In this document: piece by piece, positions 4,512-58,960 of the stretch
Numbering within the stretch: position 1 is the stretch's first letter
Layout: each line of letters starts with the position of its first letter
NCBI RefSeq assembly: GCF_002775205.1
Contig: NC_036443.1
Location: 13,713,373-13,777,372, forward strand
DNA length: 64,000 nt
Source of the DNA: Xiphophorus maculatus
Taxonomy: Eukaryota > Chordata > Actinopteri > Cyprinodontiformes > Poeciliidae
Reading direction: 5' to 3'
The notes under the pieces: model-generated
Databases searched by the model: none
What the model saw: the letters and a program-made list of their open reading frames with translations, nothing else
What the model was told of the DNA's origin: nothing
Translations under genes and position numbers: made by a program

Positions 4512-17059
<12,548 letters not shown>

Positions 17060-19839: not shown

Positions 19840-21059
19840 GGCATTATTTCAGAAGAAACACCTGACGGCAGAAGCTGACGAGAACGAAGCTCTAACCTTT
19901 TCCTCAACAAGGAGATCACCACTGACTGTAAGTAGCTGGAATTCTACTATTTAAATAGTCAAAACATGTAATTGAAAACGCTTGGAGAATGAAAAGGAAA
20001 GGAGTGATTATTTCAGTCGGTTTATCTTTTTTTTTATTAAAATGCTTTAAAATATCTGTTGACAGAAAATTTTGTGAAGGTTCATCTTAATTTCTTTGAG
20101 TTGGTTCAAATGAGACATGCTGGGTCTTACTCTTTAAGTCTGTAGCAATAGGTCATTGGAAATGTAAGTCAAATATTTTGATGTGAAGACGCACAATTTG
20201 CTCCATAAAATCTACTACAAATGTGCTAAAGGTAACACAATTTGAACTGTGGTATCAGACTTAGAGGATGAAACTCTTTTTGCTTTATGAGGAGGAAGAA
20301 ATCTAAAAAGGATGTCAGTAAAAAACAGAAAGCAGTCCAATAAAAGACACTAACATTAACCAGTTAATACATCACTGCAGAAATGCTGTTTCACTGTCGT
20401 CAAACAGGCATATCTATTGAATTTAGCTGAAATAAATTAAACGTCTGAGATAAGTGGCAAAAAGAGGTCAAGTACAAAGACTATTATGAAAATGTGCTAC
20501 AATTAGGTGCTATTACTCAAGGCAATTAGAAAAGGTACATACTGTACATGTAAAGAAACTGAGATTCTACATTGAAATAAAAAACTTTAAGGCATTTTAC
20601 TTCGCCTACAATATGTTATTCTGAAAAGGCGGAGGCCTATAAATTGTAGTCAGAACAAAATTACAGATGGGGCACTAAGGTCCCATTTCAAGACCTCTTC
20701 TGGGCAACACTGACCCTACTCTATTCAGTTCAATGTTTTAGTCTTCGCTTGATGATCCAAGCATGTTCCTAGCTATATTGAAATGTGAGGTATATTAGTC
20801 ACATGTGTCAAAGTGTTGAATGACTGTAAAACAGCCTGGGGAGATGATTCAAAGCTGCACTGTAGGTGTTAAAAAGATAAAACTACAGGCCAATTTTTCT
20901 GAAACTGATGTCTAAATGAATGCTGAGCACAAAGGTTTTTTTAATCAGCATTAGTGATCCTAACAGTTTTCTTTCACTTTGAAGGCTTTCATCAGAGATT
21001 ACCCTTAAAATAAAATTATTTTAATTCTGATTCTATCTAGGTTCATCTCAACCAGCAAG
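19840..21059 (+). other. hsp70 5'UTR exon and 5'UTR intron
   Basis: With the TATA box at 19811, transcription should start near 19840. A donor (ACT|GTAAGT) gives an exon end at 19927. An acceptor (TTCTATCTAG) ends at 21040, leaving 19 bases of 5'UTR before the ATG at 21060. The intron is therefore about 1.1 kb. It holds no recognised coding sequence. The exact start site is inferred. Confidence 0.65.
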
Positions 21060-22976
21060 ATGTCATCAGCTAAGGGAATATCCATTGGCATCGATCTGGG
21101 CACCACCTACTCTTGTGTCGGGGTCTTCCAGCATGGAAAAGTGGAAATTATCGCCAATGATCAAGGCAACAGGACAACTCCCAGCTACGTGGCCTTTACC
21201 GACACAGAGAGGCTCATTGGGGATGCTGCCAAGAACCAAGTTGCCATGAACCCCACCAACACAATCTTTGATGCCAAACGGCTCATTGGAAGAAGGTTTG
21301 ATGACCTGGTGGTCCAGTCTGACATGAAACTCTGGCCCTTCAAGGTGATCAACGACAACGGAAAGCCCAAAGTCCAGGTGGAATATAAAGGAGAAATTAA
21401 GACATTCTGTCCTGAAGAGATTTCCTCGATGGTCCTGGTTAAAATGAGAGAAATAGCGGAGGCCTTTCTGGGACAGAGGGTGTCGAATGCGGTCATCACA
21501 GTGCCAGCTTACTTTAATGATTCCCAAAGGCAAGCCACAAAGGATGCTGGAGTGATCTCCGGACTAAATGTTCTCCGCATCATAAATGAGCCGACAGCTG
21601 CAGCCATTGCCTACGGCCTTGATAAAGGCAAAAGAGGAGAGCGCAATGTCCTCATCTTTGACCTTGGTGGAGGCACTTTTGACGTGTCCATCCTGACCAT
21701 TGAGGATGGCATATTTGAGGTGAAATCCACGGCCGGGGACACACACCTCGGCGGAGAGGATTTTGACAACCGAATGGTCAGCCACTTTGTGGAGGAGTTT
21801 AAAAGAAAGCACAAGAAGGACATCAGCCAGAACAAGAGAGCAGTGAGGAGACTGCGCACAGCTTGTGAGAGAGCAAAGAGGACCTTGTCCTCCAGCACTC
21901 AGGCAAGCATTGAGATTGACTCACTCTTTGAGGGCATTGACTTTTACACCTCGATCACAAGGGCACGCTTCGAGGAGCTCAACTCAGACCTCTTTAGGGG
22001 AACACTGGAGCCAGTTGAGAAGGCCCTACAAGATGCTAAGCTGGATAAATCCAAGATCCATGAAGTTGTCCTAGTTGGTGGCTCTACAAGAATCCCCAAA
22101 ATCCAAAAGCTCCTGCAGGACTTCTTCAATGGTAGAGAACTAAACAAGAGCATCAACCCTGATGAAGCAGTGGCCTATGGTGCAGCAGTCCAGGCTGCTA
22201 TCCTCATGGGTGACACCTCAGAAAATGTCCAAGATTTACTGCTCCTGGATGTGGCACCCTTGTCGCTGGGCATTGAGACAGCCGGTGGCGTTATGACACC
22301 TCTTATCAAGCGAAACACCACCATCCCCACAAAGCAGACTCAGATCTTCTCCACATACTCAGATAACCAGCCAGGAGTCCTGATTCAGGTCTATGAAGGT
22401 GAGAGAGCCATGACAAAGGACAACAATCTCCTGGGGAAGTTTGAGCTCTTGGGTCTTCCTCCTGCTCCCAGAGGCGTGCCACAGATCGAAGTTACCTTTG
22501 ATATTGACGCCAACGGCATCCTAAACGTGTCTGCCGTCGACAAAAGCACGGGCAAAGAAAACAAAATCACAATCACCAATGACAAGGGCCGACTCAGCAA
22601 AGATGAGATCGAGAAGATGGTGCAGGATGCAGACAAGTACAAGGCGGAGGATGACCAGCAGAGAGAAAAGATCACGGCAAAGAATTCCCTGGAGTCCTAC
22701 GCTTACCACATGAAGAGCAGCGTCGAAGACGACGCCTTGAAAGGAAAAATCAGTGAGGAGGAGAAAAAGCTGGTTATTGACAAATGCAACCAGACAATTT
22801 CCTGGCTGGAGAACAACCAGATGGCAGAGAAGGAGGAGTATGAACATCAGCAGAATGAGCTGGAGAGGGTGTGCAAACCGGTCGTGGCGAAGTTGTATCA
22901 AGGTGCAGCAGCAGGAAGCTCCAGCAGTCAGGCTGGAGGAACCTCTCAGGGTCCCACTGTCGAGGAGGTCGACTAA
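21060..22976 (+). CDS. hsp70: Cytosolic heat-shock protein 70, inducible type
   Basis: A 638-residue single-exon CDS, normal for the family. The N-terminal ATPase domain has all three Hsp70 signatures: IDLGTTYS (11-18), [14 protein letters not shown] (199-212) and [15 protein letters not shown] (336-350). Then follow the interdomain linker ([18 protein letters not shown]), the substrate-binding domain, the helical lid, a G/S-rich tail ([13 protein letters not shown]) and the terminal EEVD that binds TPR co-chaperones, which places it in the cytosol/nucleus. It folds and refolds client proteins with J-proteins and exchange factors (family knowledge). An intron-free CDS plus upstream heat-shock elements and TATA box point to the inducible HSPA1-type rather than constitutive HSPA8, whose coding region is split by introns. 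No frame damage is seen. The start codon context is CAAGATGT. Confidence 0.96.
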
Positions 22977-36600: not shown

Positions 36601-39600
36601 AGCTATGCAGAAGCCCACGGACTCGCTGAAGAAAGAAGCTTTCTCTTTGGTGTTTAAAAAGCTCTGCTGTTTGGCGATTTTCAATTGCATTCTTGTTTAT
36701 CTCGTGTTGTGGACCTGCGGTTAGTTGGGCTCACTGTGATTTAAACGTGAGAGCACCAAGAACGTTTATCCAATCTGTGAAGTTAGGCTCATTCTAAAGC
36801 CAGGTGTAAGAAAAGCAGAGGCCTAAAGTCATATCTGTGTCAGATATGATTTAAGCAAGATGTTTTTGTATTTGATTGGATGTAAAATTAATATTTTTGA
36901 ATGACTCAGACAATCTTGAATCTGATACAGAATCTGTGGAGGGAGGCAAAGATCACAAGACTGTTAGGAGGCTTTTCAAACTCAAAGACCTGGAGCAGCG
37001 ACAAGATAAATCATCCAAATGCTAATAGAAACATTCGGAAAGCTGCTCAGCAAACATAAGGATCATCCATTGATGACTTAGAATGAGTTAGATAAACATT
37101 AACAAGCCATTTAAAAAAAGAAAAATTAAACACGCCGACCTTTCTGAAAATGTGTACTCTTTTTGAGAGATGCTGTCTCATTTCCTCTCAGAAACAAACT
37201 TCTTGGTTGAATGAAACTCATTTTAAACCTAAATCAGTCAGGGATGTGAATTGTTTGGGGATTAACTGCAGTTACACTGCATTTGAATATGTTTTAATTT
37301 TAAGTCTCATTACTTATGCTGTTTTGTCTAAATAAAAAAAGAAAAAGTAATTAAATTATGCATATAATCTTCGACCTGGTGACATTATTTTCTAAATAGC
37401 ATCAACGACTCCTTTTTCCTCATTGCTCTGCTTTATGTCAGTGCGTGTATGCTGCTCACTGGATTTACTTAGCAGCTTTCAATAAAGCTTCACTTTTACT
37501 GAGCAGAGCAGAGCAGTAGGCGATGTTGGGGTAACGGCGATACAATAACCACTCAGTGCAATGAGTCACAGGAAGAGTGAACACAAAAAGAGCAACTCAT
37601 GTTGATGTAATCAGTCTCTTATTGTTTGGATTTGCAGCCCCATAATTGCTTGTTTTTTTTCTGTGGCAGACTGAGTGTAGATGTAAGTTTACAGGTTTAT
37701 AATTGTTATCAATTGCTATTTATTCAGCAACCACTAATTAGTGCACGCGCTGATAGCAGGAGATGCATTTTATGAACCTATCTGGATTCAGATGCTTTTG
37801 GACCAATGTCTTCTTGATGAGCATCGCGCGGCCTCTGGTTTTATTGCCTCTCTGCTTCAACAGATTGCTCCAACAATGTGTGATTGAGGGCCGTGTGATG
37901 TCAGGAGGTATTGGTTGTTGAGCATGGATGAATGGATGTGAGGAGGTGGAAGTCAGAGGGTTTAATGATGAGCCTATAGTGAAGGCGGGGGAGGAGGGTC
38001 AGTGTGAGGCTGGGCGACTCTGGTGCTGGTGTGTCACCAACTCTCATCAGTTCAATAAGTGCGAGAGAGACGATGGAGAGCAGATTAATGGGATGCTAGC
38101 AATGAGATGAGGGAGGAAGGTAAATGGGTGAAAGGAAGTGGAGGGTGGTTGAAAAACTGGGATTTTATGAAGTTATGTATGTGGATGCAGTGACAGGAGA
38201 AAGTATTTGCCTCCATAAAGCTTTCTTCTGCTGTTATGTTTTGTCACACCAAAACGTTTCAGATCATCAAGCAAATTTTGATGTCAGTCCTTGTATCTGC
38301 AAGTGCAGCGAATTCTTTACGTCACCCTGGAGGAATTTTCTTCTTTGCAGAATTAAATTGTTTAGAGCATGAGCAAAACATCAGCTCTTTTAAATTTATG
38401 TCTGGACTTTAACTAGGGCACTCAAAAACCTTAATTTTGTTATTTTATTTAACACTTTCATAGATGGACTGCTGCAAAACTCAACTGAGCTTGAGTTTAG
38501 GGTCATGAACTTATCAGTCGGTCGTCTTGTTTTCTAGTAGAGAGCAGAATTCATTGTCCGGTCAATTATGTTTTGGTGTGAAAGAAAATTAGATAACACT
38601 TTATTTGACGAGGCGTGTATAACACTGACATGACACTGTCATAAACATGACATAACAGATGAAGGAGTCATAATGAATGTCTGTGACTGTTGTCATGAAG
38701 CGTCATTCGGTAAATAATGACACTTGTAATACAAAGTTGTTCTATAAGTTGCATACCAAATGACACTTCATAACAGTCACAGACATTCATTAAGACTCCT
38801 TCATGATCATAAGGTGTTATGTCATGTTTATGACAGTGTCATGTCAGTCTTATGCACACCCCGTCAAATAAAGTCTTACTGAAAAGTATAACAAGTCATC
38901 TTGGTTCTGTAGCATCACACTACCACTAAAATGCTAACTTTATTTTTGTCTGACATTCAAATTTGTTTGCTGATCTAAAACATAAGTGTGACAAAAATGA
39001 CATTATTTCCCTGAGATGTAGCGGAGATGTTTTAAAAAGTCCTTGATATGAAACAGTGGTGCTCATAGAGATTTTAACATGAAGATATGTTTGGAAAAAA
39101 AAAAATTGCACATCTTGAGTTTTGTTGATGCTTAGTTCTCATCATTATTGTTCGCATTCCTGATAGAGACTAGTGAAAAGTGCTGCAATAAAAACAGAAT
39201 TATTATCTCTCACTAAAATGTTTGGAAAATGAAAACTTTTGTTTTGATTACATTTATTCAGAAAGTAAGAAAATCCTACATTTTGAATTTTTTAAATAAA
39301 ACCCTTGATGCCTCTACTTTTGATGATATGAAACCAGTGACAACCTGCTTTCAGTTTTCCTGGAGAAGGTGCAAAATGTTTATTTAAATTCAGTTTAAAG
39401 GATTAGACACAATGTTCCCGAGAGTTTTTGGAAAAGAAGCAGCCCACAGCATCATAAATCCACCACCATGCTTAACAGTGGAGTTCAGGGACTTTTTTCA
39501 GCATTAACACCTGTATATTTGTTGCCAAATAAAAACCCCAGTCTTATCTGACTACAGCAAACAGATCCTATTAAGAGTATATAAAAATTGTGTTCTTATG

Positions 39601-42600
39601 TTTGTTATGTTTATTTTGGTTAGTCAAAAACAGTTTTAAGATAAGATTTTATTTATATTGCATTAGCACTTTATATGACAAAAAGGAGTATTTTCTAGAA
39701 AATTGACAGATAGATCTAATGTGACACTTTGTTGGTAAGTCTGGGTGACTAGTCAATTTCCTGTCTTAGTTTAATTGAGTTAATAAAAGCAATTTACTTT
39801 AGATAATGCTGATTTTCCGTCACTCTTTACAAAATGACTGTAGTAACATTAAAAGGTTTGATTTTTCAAAAGATTTTCAGTGTGAGATCATGCAGATGAT
39901 AAATTGATTTTTACACATCTTTACCGCGTGTGCTAATCAGCATCACAGATGTCACATACTGTAAAGTTAGAGTTCTAATTTATGTTTCATTTAAGCCATC
40001 TCAACGTGCTAAATGATAGCAGCTACAGTAATTCGCCTCAGCGCAGGATGTGTTTATGTTCGCCCTGTAAGAATGTCTCCTGTGAGTTTCTCCCTGGACG
40101 GAGCTGAGGCTTTCCCTGCTCTTCGTGTAGCAAAGTCATCATCTTCCCAAAGGGCTGCGAGCGTTGTCATGGCTGATCCCTGCTCTACAGCAGTACAATG
40201 CTGATGCTGTTTCAATCACGAGTTAATAAATCCCTATTATTCAGACTGGTTCTTATTGTGTTTATTTGCCTGTAATTAGCTTTTCGTGTTGTATGTCCTT
40301 TTCTAATCCAAGACCCAAAAGAAAACCCAGCTGAATAAAAAAAATGAACATGGTTCCCGAAGGGAGAGAGTGCGCTCGTGTTACAGGAGCATTATTCATC
40401 CAGCTGGAGAGTCAGAAAGGATTGAGAGTCAGCTTACTATTAGCGCAGGCTGCATTTAGCACAGAGCATGTATGAATAAGCGCCCAGCGTTTATACAAAC
40501 AGCACAGGTATTGTTGTGGAACAGGTGGGCTCCCTCCATACAGTCAGTGTAAACTATCACATATATTAAATGTTTACATCTAAAAAAAAGGGCATTTAGA
40601 GGGTTTACACAGATTTAACAAAAGAGCAAACAAAGTCCCTCAACATCTATTAGATACTTTTCCTGGACATGTTGCTCTGTGTGAATGGTTGATTTTATAA
40701 ACGCAATTGTGTTGGGTACTGAATGACAAATAAAATAAAATCTTTACATTTATTTAAAATACCTAAGAGGCTGCCCTCCCATGGAGGTGTGCACAGCACT
40801 GTCACAGCGCCTCCTGCTGTCAGTGACGGGCTTGACTCCTGTAATCACACTGTAAAAATAAACGTCTCTAATTTATGGTATAATATCGGCACCTGTGGTT
40901 GCCAGAATTTTACCGTATTTGTGCAGTAAATACGGTAAAATTTTACAGTATTTAAAATGTTCAATGATTAAAATTTTCCAGAATTTTACTGTATAAATAC
41001 AGTTTAAATACAGATGCTGGTATTTTACTGTAAATTAGAGACTTTTATTTTTACAGTGTAGGATCCCAGCATGATTGGTTTAGTTTAAAAAAAGTTTTGA
41101 TTTCTAGGAAATGTACTCCCATCTGCAGGAATAGCAAACAGTTTTAACTTTTTATTGTGATAAAAATAACATGATAATTTTAAAAAACTTAAGAAAATTA
41201 TATAATAATGTGCCAGAATATTCTGGTTTTCTTCTAAAGTCAGGGCGGGTGTAGAGATCTACACTGACCATTATTTTCTTTGACATACAAATACACACCA
41301 AGGATAAATGACAGAATGATCGTGTTACTGTTCTGAACCCAGTTTTTTTTAAAGCATGTCACTTTTGGGAGGTGACTGACATTTCATCGTCCGTTGTCAG
41401 TGGTTTCAATATTAAGGAAAAAGGAAAACATGGCATTATGGTAATTAATGTTGATTATCTGTCTCAAACAGGGAGTGGCAATCATCTCTCTCTTCTTCAT
41501 CCTGGTGTCCATCACTACGTTCTGCTTGGAGACGCATCAGGCCTTCGACGTAAAACAAAACATTACAGAGCTTGTCACAGAGGGAAATATCACGCGAATG
41601 GAGATCAGGGATGAGACCGTCACCAACCCAAAGCTCATCATGGTGGAGGGAATCTGTGTGGTGTGGTTTACCTTCGAGTTCCTGGTCCGAATCATCTGCT
41701 GTCCAAACAAACTGGCCTTCATCAAGAACACACTCAACATCATTGACTTTGTGGCCATCCTGCCTTTCTACCTGGAGATGAGTTTGAGGGGTCTGTCATC
41801 CAAGGCGGCCAGCAACGTGCTGGGTTTCCTCCGCGTGGTGCGCTTCGTGAGGATTCTGCGGATCTTCAAGCTCACGCGTCACTTTGTGGGCCTGCGCGTG
41901 CTGGGTCACACGCTGAGGGCCAGCGTCAACGAGTTCCTCCTGCTGGTTATCTTCCTCGCATTGGGAGTGCTCATCTTTGCCACCATGATTTACTACGCCG
42001 AGCGCATTGGAGTCACCTACAACCCCAAGATTGAAAATCACTTCAAAAACATCCCCATCAGCTTCTGGTGGGCGGTGGTCACCATGACGACGCTGGGCTA
42101 CGGGGACATGTATCCACAGACATGGCTGGGTATGATGGTGGGGGCGCTGTGTGCTCTGGCCGGCGTGCTGACCATCGCCATGCCCGTCCCGGTCATCGTG
42201 AACAACTTCGGCATGTACTACTCACTGGCAATGGCGAAGCAGAAGCTGCCGAAGAAGAAGAAGAAGCACACCCAGAACCCAGACGCGCCGACCGACTCGG
42301 CCTCCTTTGTGAAATCGGAAACAAACTCACACATAGACAGCACTCAGAGCGACACGTGTCCGCTGGCGGCGGAGGAGAGCAGCAGCAGGAACCGCTCAGG
42401 TGAGGCCAACATTTCACACTAAAGGGCCAGTCCAACCAAAATGCACTGCAGTCTTTGCATGCCGTTTGATTTTTTATTTTTTTATTTATTTTTGGAGCTC
42501 AATGCCTTAAAGAGCTCAGAGGTTTTGATCTGTGGTTCTTTTATTAGATTTTATTTTTTCGATAATATCCTACCTGCGGAGTAGGATAGTCACTCTGGTG

Positions 42601-45600
42601 TTAAGGCTGCACAATATATAGCACGTTTCTTGTAATATCACTGTTTACATTGTGAATATGGCGAATAAATACCCAGACTATCATACACTTATGTTTTCTA
42701 TGTCTGCAGTATAATTGTTCATTGTTTAAACAAATTATTATTCAAGTATTTAAGTTTAGGATTCTTTATTTCTCCACCTGAAAACAGGAGACTATTCATG
42801 ATGAATACTATGTATCTTCTACGGTACGGAGCCCTCTAGGGGACATGGGGAATTTTTTTTCTTTTGCGTTACCTCGCAAAACTTTTGCGTTCCCTCGCAA
42901 AACCTTTTGCGTTACCTCGCAAAACTTTTGCGTTACCTCGCAAAACTTTTGCGTTACCTCGCAATACTGTACTGGTCAGTTATGCAGCATAATTGAATAC
43001 TGCAAGCCTTTCCTACGGTGGGCGCTGTACTTTCTGCTTTAATATAAGGTTATGTGAGGTATTTCCATGAATTTTAGTATCTTTTTGTGAAATATCTGAA
43101 GTTTTATATCTTTCTTTAGGATAGAAAGGCACCACAAACCTACGATATAAACAGAAACCTTCCGTAAGTAGGAAAGAAATAAAAATACATTATAATTTGG
43201 ACTATTTCTGAGTAATTATCGCGGGTAATAAATCATCTGACAGTTTTGATTGTGTCTCTGTTGTGTTCGTAGTCTGAATGGTTTAAAGAGCTGCTTTCAG
43301 TGCCGCTCCATCTTCGCCTTAACAGATATAAACATTCAATAAAAAATAAATCGATTTTCAATCAGTGTTTTGCACCAAACAGTTTTTACTGTTAACAAGT
43401 TTTTATTATTAAACACACGACAAACTAATGATGGTAAAGGGCCGCACTGGGTTAACTCGGGGAATCTCATCTGTCCGTGTATCAATCAGCTCCAAACCTT
43501 TTCTTTGTTCTGTCACAATTATCGATTTATTCCATTTTGATGATCAGGTTCCAAACTTTGCAAGGACTGACCGCCCCACTCACCGCTTCCTAATACACAC
43601 AAAGCCAGTATCCTTCCCATTCATACCTGGTGACGTCACTCCCACGTCGACACACCTAAGTGTCAAAGCCGCTGCTCCTGTCATATCAATAATTACTTAT
43701 TTCATTCATAAGGCTCTTACAGAGCCTCAGTGAAAACGTGTTTATTATTATTAACTGTTTGGTGCAAAACACTGATTGAAAATCGATTCATTTTTTACTG
43801 AATGTTTATATCTGTTAAGGCGAAGATGGAGCGGCACTGAAAGCAGCTCTTTAAACCATTCAGACTAGAACACAACAGAGACACAATCAAAACTGTCAGA
43901 TGATTTATTACCCGCGATAATTACTCAGAAATAGTCCAAATTATAATGTATTTTTATTTCTTTCCTACTTACGGAAGGTTTCTGTTTATATCGTAGGTTT
44001 GTGGTGCCTTTCTATCCTAAAGAAAGATATAAAACTTCAGATATTTCACAAAAAGATACTAAAATTCATGGAAATACCTCACATAACCTTATATTAAAGC
44101 AGAAAGTACGGCGCCCACCGTAGGAAAGGCTTGCAGTATTCAATTATGCTGCATAACTGACCAGTACAGTATTGCGAGGTAACGCAAAAGTTTTGCGAGG
44201 TAACGCAAAAGGTTTTGCGAGGTAACGCAAAAGTTTTGCGAGGTAACGCAAAAGGTTTTGCGAGGGAACGCAAAAGTTTTGCGAGGTAACGCAAAAGTAT
44301 TGCGAGGGAACGCAAAAGTTTTGCGAGGTAACGCAAAAGTATTGCGAGGTAACGCAAAAGTTTTGCGAGGTAACGCAAAAGAAAAAAAATTCCCCATGTC
44401 CCCTAGAGGGCTCCGTAGTAATCTTCTAATACCACAAAACCACTGTGGTTGGCTTTCAGATTCCAGAGTCGTTGCATTTTTCCGACAGATGCTCTGCGTT
44501 TACTCATATAGACAGAAATCCACCGTGATCAAATTACTGCCCATAACATCTCAGTCAAATTGGATTTCATCACAGCAAAAATGCTGCTTTTTATGCAATG
44601 TGCCTCAGCCGTGGTCTGGATCTACGGGGAATCCTTAATAATAGCTCTGGCTTTCTTGCCGTCGTGTTTTCGTCTCCACGCCAGACTCCAAACAGAACGG
44701 GGACGCGAATGTGGCCCATTCAGACGAGGAAGGCTGCAGTCTGACCCAGCCGCTGTCCCCCAGTGAGAAGTGGTCGCTGCACTGCTCCAGAGGACGAGGC
44801 AAGAACAAGGAGGGCACCTGCTTCATCCTAACGTCGGGAGAGCCCAGCATCCATGTTGGTGGGTTACATCACCTCAAGTTTCATTTAGCTCAGTTCAAGT
44901 AAATCCAATCCAATGAAATTTACTTCAGTTCAGTCTAATCCTAATCCTGTTCAATTCAAGTTGTTTAGTAAAGATTCAGTTCACTCTTTATAAAATGCAG
45001 TTTCAGTTTAATTAAGTTTAGTTCGGTTTTTATAAAAACCCCAGTTCAGCTCAGTTCACTTAAATTAACTTAGAATCCATTATGTCTTTACTGTTGGTCT
45101 TTGATTTCTTTAATTATAATTGCCATACTTGGGAATCAAAGTTTTTTTTTTTTTTATAATTAAACTAAGATGTTGGTATCTGATTGCAAATGAAACAGAT
45201 AATTAATTAATGAAACAATAGTCATAGTGACATTGAAATATAATTCAATATATTTGAATTATATATATATTTATAATATATATATTTATAATACGATATA
45301 TATTTTTCAACAAGAAAACAAACGTAATATGAAAACATATTTAGCAATCAAAGGAAAACCCTCTTTTTGGATTAGAGATATTAAACTCACAACTCCAGTC
45401 TCAAAATATCTTGATTGGCTTCCTGTCTGTTGTTGCATTGATTTAAAATCTTTATTGCTCACATTTAAAGTTTTAAATGATCTAGCTCTGTCTGATTTGT
45501 GCAATCTTCTCTCAGCAGCCACACACCTTTAAGAGCATGTTCCCAGATTAAAGTTAAATCATAAAGGTGATCTACGTGTCCACAATGCTCAGCATAGATT

Positions 45601-52504: not shown

Positions 52505-52890
52505 ACACATGCATTTTCAATAAGAAATGTATACGTGTTTTTTTTTCCTTCATAATTGCATTTTTGTCAAAAAATGTATTTATTTATTTTTTTTTTTTCT
52601 TAAACATGCATTTTCATCAGGAAATTTATATATTATGTTTTGTCTTTTCCTTATACAAGCATTTGTTCTTTTGTCATTGCCTCGGCTACTGTTTTTATTT
52701 TCCTTTTCCTTTTTGCGTGTCTTGTTATCAAGAGATGTTTAAATGCGAATGAGGGGTGGTGTCATAAGGCCTCAGCCTCTGCTGATTGGTTGGTTAGCTT
52801 CACACCATTTCTTGACGAAAACACATGTTTAAGGAAAAGAAAAAACAAAATATATAAATTTCTTGCTGAAAATGCATGTATAAGAAAGAG
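52505..52890. repeat. Mixed tandem and inverted repeat
   Basis: On the left (52505-52670) a ~50-bp unit containing ATGCATTTTCA, AGAAAT and a T-rich run is repeated about three times. On the right (52808-52890) two units occur in reverse complement (AAGGAAAAGAAAAAACAAAA, TATATAAATTTCTTGCTGAA, AATGCATGTATAAGAAAGAG). About 135 bp of unrelated sequence separates the arms. Confidence 0.7.
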
Positions 52891-53765
52891 GAAAAGCATA
52901 AAAAAGGAGATTTCTGTTTTTATTTTTAATTATGTCAGTTCTGGTCCTCCATACAAACGTTGGTGGATCAAGATGTAGTCAGATATATTTGGGTGCTCAT
53001 GATATGTTGCTTCACCCAATTGCTTCTTTATCCAGGTATTCATGATTCTCTTGTCATTCTCAGAAACAAGGATTTTCACATTATCTTTTCTATTTATAAT
53101 TTAAGCTTTGTTTTTGGATAGTGGTGTTCATTGCTTCTGGAAAGTGATGATCCTGTAGCGGTCCACCCCTGATGTCCTCTGATGATGTCCAGATCCAGAT
53201 CTTTATGTTCCTGAGTGATCCAGCATTTAACTATGAGACAACTGTTTCAATTAAAAGGGACAGTTCACTTTTAGTTGACTGTCTTTCTTCAAGAAAGATT
53301 TTGAATATTATAAGGTCCATCAAAATATGTTTACTCCCAAGCATGTTTATCTTTTTATTCAAATCTCTTATCTCGTTTAATTTAAACATAGAATACTCCA
53401 TGGTGTCTTTTAAGTCTACATTCACTGTAGCTTCTGAAAAACTTTAAAAATAGTAAAAATGTTATCATGAAAAAGTTTCAGTAACAAACATTTACTAAAT
53501 ATGATCAACAGCGTTGATACTCTGTCAGGAGTTTTTGTCGAGCTTTAAAAAGGTGTTTATAACCTTTGAACTGTTCTAGATTTAGAGAAATTCTGATAAC
53601 AAACTAATGTGTTTCATGGGATTTCAATTTTTACAGACACAAATAATGAAAAAAAAAACTGTTCAGATTTGAATTCAGTCCCCTTTAACCGGATTATTCT
53701 GAAATAAAATCCAACACTCCCAATTGATGAAAGTTGTTTCAAATGTGATCTTTAAATGTAGCAAA

Positions 53766-53804: not shown

Positions 53805-56454
53805 TTAATTGATTAATTTCAATGCCAAGAGCACCTTTAAATTGATAAAAAAATGAACTGTGGTTGAAGAGGAACAGTCAAAGTTGAAGGGTGATGGAGA
53901 ATCTGCCAGGGCTTGTCCTGTCATCCATGATTACTCCCTTTTATTGTTCCTGCTTGTTCCCTGCTTTTTCCCCCTCTGCAAGAGGTTGTCATGACAATAG
54001 TGAACATGGTTACCATGGAGAGGGGCTCAACCAGAGCCATTTTGCTGTCTGAGCCACTCATACTGTGTAGTCTTGACTTATCCCGAATAAACTTCTGCCA
54101 GTCCATTAGTTAATGAGGATGTAAAGTTACATGTTAATGATGAATCGTTGTTGACCCGAATCATTATTGTGAAAGCATTTAGATAGAGAAACGACACGCT
54201 GAACTGAATCTATTTATTGATCTTGCTTCATGCAAGTCAATTCAAGATGAGCTGAACGCAAAAAAAGTGTGGATTTGAAGCAGCAGTCGAAATGTCGGAG
54301 TAATTTGGAGACTTTTTTCTGAACCCACAGTCCAGCAGGGACAGATGACAGATGGAAGAAAATTAAAGGGGAGAGAGAGCTCTGGAGCTGCCCTCCCTCG
54401 CCCCTTTCTGGTTTTTATTCTGCAGGTCCAGCTGAAAATGCCAGCCATGTTTCAGAGCTCTGATCTGAAATTAATTGCTTCTGAAAGTTGTTGCTGCTGA
54501 ACCCGGTTTACAGCTTATTAAAAAAGTAGATGACCTCTAGTGGTCCAGTTTTGCCAATTTTAGCTTTGATCATATTTTTCTGTATTCTGTATTAACTCCT
54601 CCGAAACGTCTTTTTGCTCTTGTTAAAAGTGTACACTGTTAGGATTAATCAGTTAAATCACTTTTAAGACATTTTAACATAAATTCACGGCGCAAAAAAA
54701 CAAAACAAATTCATGTCCAAAAGCTGCAATATGACTTTAAACCTTTCTAGAACCAGTTCAGTTTGTTATCTTTCTTTGGAAAACCAGGCTAAATCCTGAG
54801 GCTGCTGCCAAGTATACTTGGAAATTATGAGGCCTTGTTATCTTAAAACATTTTATAAAGCTACAAATATCAATGCATATTTAATGATTTCTGATGTACA
54901 AAATGTATGTCTTAGAGTGTGATAAATTAAAATAATACTAAAAAATGTACACAGAATTTGTGTGTATTGCTTTGTCATTTGGGTGTGGAAAAATGTCTTT
55001 TCACAGGAAAGGTTAAATCATGATCACATCTTTCATCCATTTGAGTTAAGCTGAAAGTACAAAGAAACAGGAATTCATGTCCACTAATCACATTCTTTCA
55101 ATAAATCTTTCAATAAATCATAAATGTTTAAAAAAAAAATCACTTCTTAAATCAAAGATTCACATGGCTTAAAAGAAAATGGCTGGTTCTCACGTCTGTC
55201 TCCTCTCCACTCTCTGATTTGGTTTCATAAAAACTTCATAAAGTTCTAATACGACCACCCTAAAATTAAAGGTCATCGAAAAAAAAACAGACGACAACAC
55301 CACAGGTGAGACGTAGGATTAACTTTGTTTGAAAAGACAGCCCAAGTACCATAACAGAGGTTCTTCTGCACTTCAGAGGCTGCAGAAGCCATACTTCCCT
55401 GGGTGTTTAGCGGCGGACGCTCACTGTGTTCCCTTGTGTTTGTGTGAGAGAGAGGGAGAACACTAATCATACCCTTTGAATGTACGACTCCATCAGCGTT
55501 GACCCTGACGGGCTGTATGTCACCCCGACTCCCCCGCTCCTGCCACCAACCTCTGCGCCTCGGCCTCTGCCACCCCCACACGATGGTCGGCTGCACACCG
55601 AGCACCTCCGCAATCAGGAGTTATATTGAATTTCATTCAAATTAGCCTCTGAGTCGCCGCTAACAAGCTTCAAAGTCTGGCTCAAGTCATCCTCGGTAAA
55701 GCACAAAGTAAAGTGTGATGACAGGCAGCCGTGCTAACGAGCTTTAATCCAATAACGTCTGGCGACACCAGGGTAGCGCGTGAGTCAGCCTTACTTTGCA
55801 CATCAGCCGTTTTGCTTTGCACACCTCTCATTTTAAGACTGAATGCTGATATTTTAACGTCCTTCAGAAGCAAACTGCTTCATGCACGTATAGCTGAGAC
55901 TTTTCATGTTGGCATTTTACATCCTCAACTCGCCTGCTGAACAGAGCTGCAGTAAAGGTTTAGGGCAGGATGGTGTACTTCAACACTATGTGACATTTGT
56001 TAACATGCAAAAACAAGTGAGACACGGCAACTATTATTTAAACACTTCTTTTACATCATTATTCCTGATGAATTTATACTCCAAATCAAATCTCAGGTAA
56101 TTAGCACAGGTTAACAGGTCACTTTGTGTTATGACTAAAAGCTACTTTGTCAACGCAAGTTTAAATAATGCTGTAAAATACACAGCCACTGCAGTCTTCA
56201 GAGAGTCCATCAGTCTGTAATGTGATATCATAACAAATCCAGCCATTCTGTGAAGTCCTCAGGTTCCTTAGAGAACATTAGAGAACATCTATTAGTTCTA
56301 CAAGACATTAATAAAACCTTTAAGAAAGAGTGGCGAGATGAGAACAGAAGACAGAATAGTTCCTGTTTAAAATTTGCCACAGAAGATCTCTGGTCAGCTG
56401 AGATGATAATTTTTGACCTACATAATAACCACATTGGGTGTGGGAAAATATTCA

Positions 56455-56741
56455 GTAACACTTTATTTGAAGGGGTGTGCATAAGACTGACATGACACTG
56501 TCATGAACATGACAGTGTCATGAAGTGTCATGAATGTCTATGACTGTTGTCATAAAGTGTCATTTGGTAAATAATGACACTTTTAATGGACTTCTACTGC
56601 AAATTTTAGGAAAACTTTGCATTACAAATATCATCATTTACCAAATGACGCTTCATGACAACAGTCAAACATTCATAAAGATTCATGTTCACGACAGTGT
56701 CATGTCAGTCTTAGGCACACCACTTCAAATAAAGCATCACC
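56455..56741. mobile_element. Palindromic MITE, copy 2
   Basis: Same family as 38593-38880. Left arm GTAACACTTTATTTGAAGGG, then GACATGACACTGTCATG; right arm the complement ending CTTCAAATAAAG. The shared inner block is GGTAAATAATGACACTT. It differs from copy 1 by numerous substitutions and a different centre. Confidence 0.8.
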
Positions 56742-58960
56742 AAATGTTCAGTACATAACAGTAACATGAGGTTGTAGTGGAACAAAATATGAAAAAGTGT
56801 AATTTCCCTGTACAGATTGAAAGTAGCACCTAAAAGTTTAGCTGTTTCATTTCCAGCAATGTTAGTTGATCAAATGTCTTTTTTTTTGGTATTCATTTTA
56901 CTTCTGGTCAGTATTACTAAGTTGTTTGCTAAACAACTGGTTTTATAAAATGCTGTTGGGTGTCAACAATTGTTCAAGACACCATATCAGTAAGATAAAT
57001 ATTGATGCAAGTCCCATCTGAATCATGAGGCAGAAACATCCACACTCTTTCACCGTACAACTATAAATTGATTCAACCTACAAGCAGCAAAGACTTGATC
57101 TGAAGTCTGAGGTCAGCCAAAGCCAAGTGAGATCTTGATACTGCATGAAAAGCTTCTGGACAGCTTAAAGCTTTTAGTTACCATTATTTCATGTTAGATG
57201 AGATTCTTCTCAGAGTGAAAGGATGTCTTTTGTAAAAGCGTAGCCATTATGTCTCAAGACAGGCGGGAAATCACTCAGCCATTACCGTGTGCATTTGCTT
57301 CACTTGCCAGTTTTCTGAAATACTGGCTCCATTTGAACATAGTTCAACAGAGAATAATAATGATAAACAATTAGGCTTTTTTTTTTTTTTTTTACTATTC
57401 AGCCATATCTTTATTTAGATGAACCATTTTTAAAGCAAAAGCACCTTTAGAAACAAGAATGGAACTAAGGTGGAGCCTGTACGTTTCTGCATAGCAACAT
57501 TTTTTTTTACTTCATTGCGATACCAATGAGAAGGCGAACATGCACTCCTGCTCAGCAGTGGTCTAATCAGCCGCCCGCTGCTCTTCGGCTGTCACTGCAA
57601 AAAGGCTTTTCCGGCGCTGCTCTCCAACAGAATCCCTGAATGGCTGCAATTATCCCCTTTGATGAAGCCAGCGCGCATGAAATGGCAAACGCATTAGAGA
57701 CGACACGTCCCACACCCACTCCCAGGTAGGAAGGAAGCCATTAAGGCCAAAATGCTTTTCATCAAGGAGCCTCAACATCTCCATGTTCAATGTCATGTTG
57801 TTAAATATTGATATTCCCGCTTACTAATTGCTGCTCGGTCGAAGAAAAGCACCTTTGATTGCATGTGGGTGGGTTCTATGACCACACGCTTTGTTTTAGG
57901 ATGTGACAAGTAAAGGCAAACCTGTCAACACAGGGGACCAGAGCATCAGAAACTGCTGCAGAAACAGATAAATATTGATGTTGTTTGAACTGATCACAAA
58001 AAAATTACATTTTCATTTCCATCTTTGGCGAAGAGGACAGCTTGTATTATCAAAACATGTATGTTTCCAGCTTTCACTTGCTTTAAAGAAACTCTTTCCC
58101 AGCTTTCAATGTCACTGTCTTTCTGAAGACAGTTTTGGTGAGACAAATAAAGCATGAGAAGTATTATTGTTCTCAGAGACAGTGGATGTCCTGGTTCTCA
58201 GAGATCTAATTGAAGCCCAGGAAGACGAGGAGCATCGAGTTCGCAAACGGCTGAGTGTTTGGAGATAATAGGCTTCAGCTGTTCTCTTCTTTTATCTTCA
58301 AAAAAGGGTCAAAATTCAAAGCAGTTGCCCCATTACTTCGCAGTACATCAGCCTTTGTCTAATGGGCGTGCTTCTGAACTTTGTCCCACTCTGGTGTCAA
58401 ACAGCTGACCTGAAGTTTTCCTCCTCCAGCAGGAAAAAACAGAGTGAGGCTACAGAGCTGCAGCTCGTGGCCTTTTTCCTACCTGTTTTTCTGCCTTTTT
58501 CCTGATTATAGACGATGTGCATTTTCACCTTAACATCGTCTCATATCGCTATGCAGTGAAATAGCGAGTTATCTGTTATGTAAACAACTATTCTCTATGT
58601 TGGTTAAAGTCACTGGCTATAAGTTTGTGACAATGTGGGTTTGATGCTATAATTTGAACAGGATTGACAAAAAAAAAAAAAGAAAAACATAAAGACGAAT
58701 CAAATCTTTAGCTAGAAAATATTGAATGAGCTAACTACTCCCAATGTGAAATGACTGCAATTAGATAGGTAATGTTAGAAGATTAAAAAAAACGGTAAAA
58801 TGGAAATCTTAATTAGCAAAACATGAGACTGCTTGTACAGGAACGGCCTGTATCATAAGACCTGACCTCATACTCTGGGGCTGTGGCATGTCAAAGTCCA
58901 CCACCGGATTTCCAGAGGGACACAGTGAAACACCGTCTCCAAGTTCGATGTCTCTGTGTC

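Follow-up and report, generated by a model that had tools for sequence, protein, structure and literature searches.

A foldback DNA transposon with arrays of palindromic units in kcnc4 intron 2 of Xiphophorus maculatus, most likely of the IS3EU superfamily

A foldback element in kcnc4 intron 2

The window analysed here is a 64-kb stretch of Xiphophorus maculatus DNA (GCF_002775205.1, NC_036443.1:13,713,373-13,777,372, forward strand), and all coordinates are relative to it. It contains a Kv3-type potassium channel gene that we take to be kcnc4, from Kv3.4 sequence and from the name given in an earlier note on this DNA. A BTB_2 domain is encoded by exon 1 and an ion-transport domain by exon 2. 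The last base of exon 2 is 42399 (CAG/GTGAG) and the start of exon 3 was placed at 44685, where the junction forms DSKQNGDAN. These limits enclose the element described below, as the earlier note had claimed in locating it inside intron 2, and the element makes up 70% of that intron. Its parts, and the bases that flank it, are as follows.

42400-44684, + strand: kcnc4 intron 2, 2285 bp (donor as above; acceptor CCAG/AC as placed here)
42814-42819, no strand assigned: left copy of the probable 6-bp target duplication, ATCTTC; TA, which comes next, likewise recurs on the right
42820-42824, + strand: TACGG, five additional bases that match the first five of the element tip
42825-43384, + strand: left terminal inverted arm, 560 bp, tip TACGGAGCCCT; limits taken from alignments
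42861-42968, + strand: left hairpin-unit array, 5 units
43385-43752, no strand assigned: central segment, 368 bp, in which no coding similarity to relatives was found
43753-44417, - strand: right terminal inverted arm, 665 bp; limits taken from alignments
44168-44381, - strand: right hairpin-unit array, 10 units
44418-44420, no strand assigned: GTA, three additional bases that match the final three of the element's right end
44421-44426, no strand assigned: right copy of the probable 6-bp target duplication, ATCTTC, from flank comparison

Two near-identical inverted arms thus surround 368 non-coding bp, which bears out the proposal in the earlier note of a foldback-like transposon with long terminal inverted repeats. 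Its estimate of 600-680 bp per arm holds for the right arm (665 bp), the left being a little shorter (560 bp), and this difference arises because the arrays differ in unit number. The arms consist of an inverted pair of 348 nt at 99% complementarity, another of 135 nt at 92%, and pairs inside the arrays; the first two are the longest among the inverted pairs listed for the window. Over the 416-bp array-free portion, the left and right arms differ by three substitutions and one 1-base gap, with two more differences at the edges of the compared stretch. In a purely computational RNA fold, the predicted partners of 558 among the first 565 bases lie at 43752 or beyond. The element therefore combines the structural features of a foldback (long inverted arms, internal tandem repeats and a non-coding middle), the class to which FB belongs.

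The tips read TACGG..CCGTA at the two ends. When up to three mismatches were allowed, the 18-base tip TACGGAGCCCTCTAGGGG matched the window twice (0.01 expected), both times exactly and once at each end of the element. Further copies were sought within the window, and the search gave only short matches of 15-21 bases (E 0.085 or worse). Nor was a transposase remnant found: tblastn with residues 101-408 of P0056, a predicted protein related to the element (see below), gave no match in the whole window at E up to 1, in agreement with the earlier description of a centre devoid of transposase. The other query pieces gave tblastn matches that overlap the arrays, except for one weak match at 17504-17457.

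Each array is built from units of the form TTTTGCG-N6-CGCAAAA, so that the units are themselves palindromic, and the copy numbers of 5 on the left and 10 on the right are those already counted in the earlier note. All 13 intervals between units in the window are 21 or 22 bases, about two turns of B-form DNA.

Several other features were seen in the window. An uninterrupted Hsp70 ORF (21009-22976, + strand) precedes the ORF with kcnc4 exon 1 by about 1.6 kb. Exon 2 contains a full-length match to Rfam RF00485, the potassium channel RNA editing signal (42093-42206; 95.4 bits, E 9.1e-19). This family was described from KCNA1, and the match may reflect homology of the pore region rather than an editing site. 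A second palindromic element, with arms of 64-70 bp, is present in two copies about 18 kb apart that are inverted to each other (38584-38883 and 56447-56748), and short inverted-repeat pairs at 13410-13635, 40847-41059 and 52579-52904 (arms 50-86 bp) look like small MITEs.

Relatives, their ends and the target duplication

A unit length of 21 bases lets reading frames cross the array by chance, and we therefore searched predicted proteins with the chance ORFs that cover the array and tip. The plus-strand ORF recovered at least 10 proteins (the 7997 candidates sharing most words were scored) and the minus-strand ORF recovered two (P0048 and P0058), while P0009, an apparently complete short two-ended copy, recovered 51 when used as a query. 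Pooling gave 58 distinct relatives, all of them predicted peptides, so that their tips and duplications are stated below as compatibility on back-translation and not as DNA sequence. Since the relatives were collected by array similarity, their arrays are not independent evidence; most were found with the tip-bearing query P0009, which means that the sharing of array and tip is partly selected, and the flanks outside the tip are unselected. Relatives with weak or degenerate arrays (e.g. P0002, P0003 and P0006) were kept in the counts. P0004, whose likeness is confined to a short repeat inside an apparently unrelated bacterial protein, was left out of the array and spacing counts (57 relatives) and kept in the tip count (58).

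The first 11 bases, taken exactly as TACGGAGCCCT, were compatible with a left end in 27 of 58 relatives, with a right end in 30 of 58, and with at least one end in 39 of 58. For comparison, 200 shuffled 11-mers in one orientation were compatible with a mean of 0.7 of the 58 proteins and a maximum of 23. Among the relatives recovered with the plus-strand ORF, five of ten had a compatible tip (P0001, P0005, P0008, P0009 and P0010); neither of the two recovered with the minus-strand ORF did (P0048 and P0058), and these two, with P0055 and P0056, are among the 19 of 58 relatives that lack one. Read together, the frames suggest that the relatives' tip is TACGGAGCCCTTTAA(A/G)GGACAT, which would agree with the window at 20 of 22 positions. 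The earlier note had made mobility depend on homologous ends elsewhere, and relatives on other contigs do carry a compatible tip together with the same units. The inner arm and centre of the window element had no match among the relatives. Sequence words from the tip and unit were also sought in literature text; among the matches listed, only acggagccct occurred, in papers with titles unrelated to transposons.

The 57 counted relatives hold 283 compatible stem-complete units (TTTTGCG-N6-CGCAAAA), and 48 of them hold at least two. The shuffle control for this stem pattern is loose, with a mean of 2.8 units, yet one of 60 shuffles reached 71. The number of units differs from relative to relative, and one ORF holds as many as 11 that are stem-complete. 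Of 96 intervals up to 22 bases, 59 are 21 bases, 34 are 22 and three are 20, which places 93 at 21 or 22. Longer intervals span units that fail the stem pattern; the commonest is 41 bases (n = 40), compared with 42 (n = 8), 43 (n = 14) and 44 (n = 2). The 41-base peak, one short of two 21s, counts against strict phasing of the units. Scans of viral contigs for the tip and unit patterns gave no match, and a scan of bacterial and archaeal genome contigs for the unit gave one 20-base match in a bacterial MAG, taken as chance given the size of the collection.

We then enumerated, for both tips, every possible DNA coding sequence of the adjoining outer residues and tested whether k bases touching the tip could be common to the two sides. 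Eighteen relatives are two-ended, one of which (P0040) is too short for the test at k = 6. A 6-bp duplication touching the tip was compatible with 16 of the 17 testable copies, the failing relative being P0041, and with 5.9% of 289 mismatched left/right pairs. This was not true of other lengths (5 bp, 3 of 18; 7 bp, 0 of 17; 8 bp, 1 of 17; 9 bp, 0 of 16), nor of a 6-bp repeat at 15 offsets shifted by 0-3 bases on each side (0 to 2 of 16-17). Thus, 6 bp is the most likely length of the duplications that the family produces around its TACGG..CCGTA ends.

The window copy itself is flanked by an exact 8-bp repeat, ATCTTCTA, at 42814-42821 and 44421-44428. Among 20000 random pairs of window flanks, 0.21% shared an exact 8-mer and 1.7% a 6-mer, with offsets of 0-6 allowed. 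This repeat had been put forward as a likely 8-bp target duplication; it is indeed present on both sides, but the relatives (16 of 17 at 6 bp against 1 of 17 at 8 bp) make 6 bp the better reading, and the duplication of the window copy is probably 6 bp. ATCTTCTA can be read as ATCTTC followed, at either edge, by an element beginning TAC. The 6-bp repeat does not touch the tip in this copy, since five bases intervene on the left and three on the right. A parse with 5 + 3 extra bases, or a simpler one with fewer or none, was obtained for 198 of 200000 random flank pairs. IS3 forms a joined-end intermediate, and one possibility, by analogy, is that TACGG and GTA are the trace of a similar intermediate; another is that they are two later small duplications.

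Transposase and family assignment

In P0055 and P0056, the frame leaves the array and continues into a protein that has a Clr5 domain and an integrase core. Both match the integrase core listed by Pfam as rva_4 (E 2.5e-14 for P0055 and 7.9e-22 for P0056) and Clr5 (E 4.1e-5 and 3.8e-5, respectively), and neither contains a MULE or THAP domain in Pfam. The last part of P0055 looks frame-shifted. Against NCBIfam, P0056 gave hits to IS481 (E 2.8e-4) and IS3 (E 3.7e-3), both far below the cut-offs, and a weaker one to IS630 (E 0.016). P0023 carries a compatible tip, the array and the start of a transposase ORF of the P0055/P0056 type in one frame, and aligns with P0056 (E 1e-14); Pfam gave no match for it. 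The two-ended copy P0045, which lacks a transposase, can be aligned with P0056 over the array and the stretch next to the tip (E 2e-29). P0056 had no relative by sequence among solved structures, and the model predicted for its structure had a mean pLDDT of 35.7, too low for use. When viral contigs were scanned with P0056, one stretch was matched by pattern and no relative was confirmed.

On this evidence, the element is probably a non-autonomous foldback DNA transposon, most likely of the IS3EU superfamily, which an IS3/integrase-like transposase from an autonomous relative would have inserted into kcnc4 intron 2 with duplication of 6 bp. The earlier note recognised no family; IS3EU is indicated by the 6-bp duplications, the TA..TA ends with TACGG tips, and the weak IS481/IS3 similarity of the transposase. 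In excerpts of the published descriptions, TA..TA ends are a constant feature of complete IS3EU families, whose duplications are usually of 6 bp (PMC10045372), and IS3EU elements of rust fungi have TAYGG..CCRTA ends and 6-bp duplications (PMC12730594). A tree that also holds IS3 and IS481 is described, in the text available, as separating IS3EU/GingerRoot poorly from IS481EU (PMC10045372). The weak similarity of P0056 to the IS481 and IS3 models fits this tree, as far as the excerpts describe it (PMC10045372). As given in passages of PMC4455052, the Repbase rule calls for terminal 11 bases that can be aligned, with one mismatch, to those of a named family with duplications of equal length. Repbase keeps IS3EU families (PMC10045372, in part), and the family of this element may well be catalogued there already; the identification made here is by published IS3EU descriptions and not by named sequences.

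The window element departs from IS3EU in its long foldback arms with a palindromic array. In excerpts of the literature on IS3EU, no such array is described; those naming both IS3EU and foldback come from a single oyster satellite survey, whose available text describes none, and the same holds for excerpts naming IS3EU with tandem repeats and TIRs. Prokaryotic IS3 and IS481 elements share with the relatives the distant similarity of the P0056 transposase. In contrast to the TA..TA ends seen here, they end in TG..CA (PMC10045372, in the passages available). The foldback shape itself seems, in partial text, to belong mainly to Mutator-like transposons, with exceptions such as the P-like Galileo (PMC4079207, PMC4168063).

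That last point is one reason to weigh a foldback or MITE from a superfamily with longer duplications (of hAT, Zisupton, P, Merlin or Mutator type), in which the true duplication would be the 8-bp ATCTTCTA and the ends would be CGG.. and TAC... The exact repeat on both flanks would permit this for the window copy alone. We consider it quite unlikely, given that a duplication of 6 bp suits 16 of 17 relatives with a compatible tip, against 1 of 17 at 8 bp and 0 of 16 at 9 bp, and that their transposase shows, in Pfam, solely the integrase core and Clr5. Each candidate fails on one or both grounds: Mutator/FB (about 9-bp duplication, MULE transposase) on the 9-bp fit and on the absence of MULE from P0055 and P0056; P/Galileo (7-8 bp, THAP transposase) on 0 of 17 at 7 bp, the single fit at 8 bp and the absence of THAP from the same proteins; and Zisupton/hAT, whose 8-bp duplication is the usual one for hAT (PMC12730594, in part), on that same single fit. 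Merlin, with GG ends and 8-9 bp duplications in the excerpts of PMC8101967, agrees neither with tips that begin TACGG nor with the counts at 8 and 9 bp. A local inverted duplication that was never mobile, its arms and array having arisen in place, would account for inner arms and a centre that are unmatched among the relatives; against it, copies on other contigs again combine the tip with the array and the window copy bears a flanking repeat, and we regard it as very improbable indeed. Arms of this kind are not known from prokaryotic IS3 or IS481 elements. We prefer the reading of an IS3EU foldback.

Possible function of the arrays and significance

Among known foldbacks, the closest likenesses are in architecture. 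Tetris of Drosophila has long inverted arms, internal tandem repeats and a non-coding middle (PMC4079207); Galileo, of the P superfamily, has long inverted arms and, in one D. willistoni copy, tandem repeats of unequal number (PMC4168063, PMC4079207); and Tm1 of nematodes, a Mutator element, has composite foldback-like arms (PMC3169594), all as given in excerpts of these papers. Unlike the window element, in the same excerpts the three have 7-10 bp duplications and other transposases where these are known (none is known for Tetris), and their repeat units are about 140 and 220 bp, with no palindromic units described.

In the mechanism we propose for an IS3EU foldback, the transposase of an autonomous relative would act in trans on the window copy, recognising the tip and perhaps the array. 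An analogue would be Galileo of D. buzzatii, whose internal repeats are said, in passages of PMC4079207, to contain extra transposase binding sites. The palindromes would likewise serve as binding sites, mostly kept near two helical turns, a spacing that would suit a transposase bound along a single face of the DNA, with the 41-base peak as a reservation. Unit number (5 and 10 here) could change by hairpin slippage or unequal exchange, and the arms could stay alike through recent origin or conversion.

The same IS3EU foldback might instead merely carry the hairpin units as a self-expanding minisatellite, a rival to the mechanism and not to the family. Unit numbers that differ between the arms and among the relatives would be expected of such a passenger, as would the prominence of the 41-base interval. 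The narrow spread of the shorter intervals, with 93 of 96 at 21 or 22 bases, suggests otherwise, as does the array that adjoins the tip even in the copy with a transposase start (P0023). We lean slightly away from the passenger role, which has a substantial chance of being correct. A bolder and rather doubtful extension would join the two functions: the ends of an IS3EU lineage would have become long foldback arms, and the near-identical palindromes on them would form a ladder in rough phase with the helix, at once a platform for loading transposase at multiple sites and a hairpin-driven, self-expanding minisatellite that the transposon scatters through genomes. The extra TACGG and GTA would then have been left behind by a circle-like intermediate with joined ends, of the kind formed by IS3.

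If this is a foldback lineage on the IS3EU side, then the foldback shape evolves repeatedly, and arrays of palindromic sites can belong to foldbacks. The element is also a concrete candidate for the seeding of minisatellites by a transposon. Finally, a near-perfect stem of about 560 bp in a potassium-channel intron offers a natural test of how far introns tolerate double-stranded RNA.
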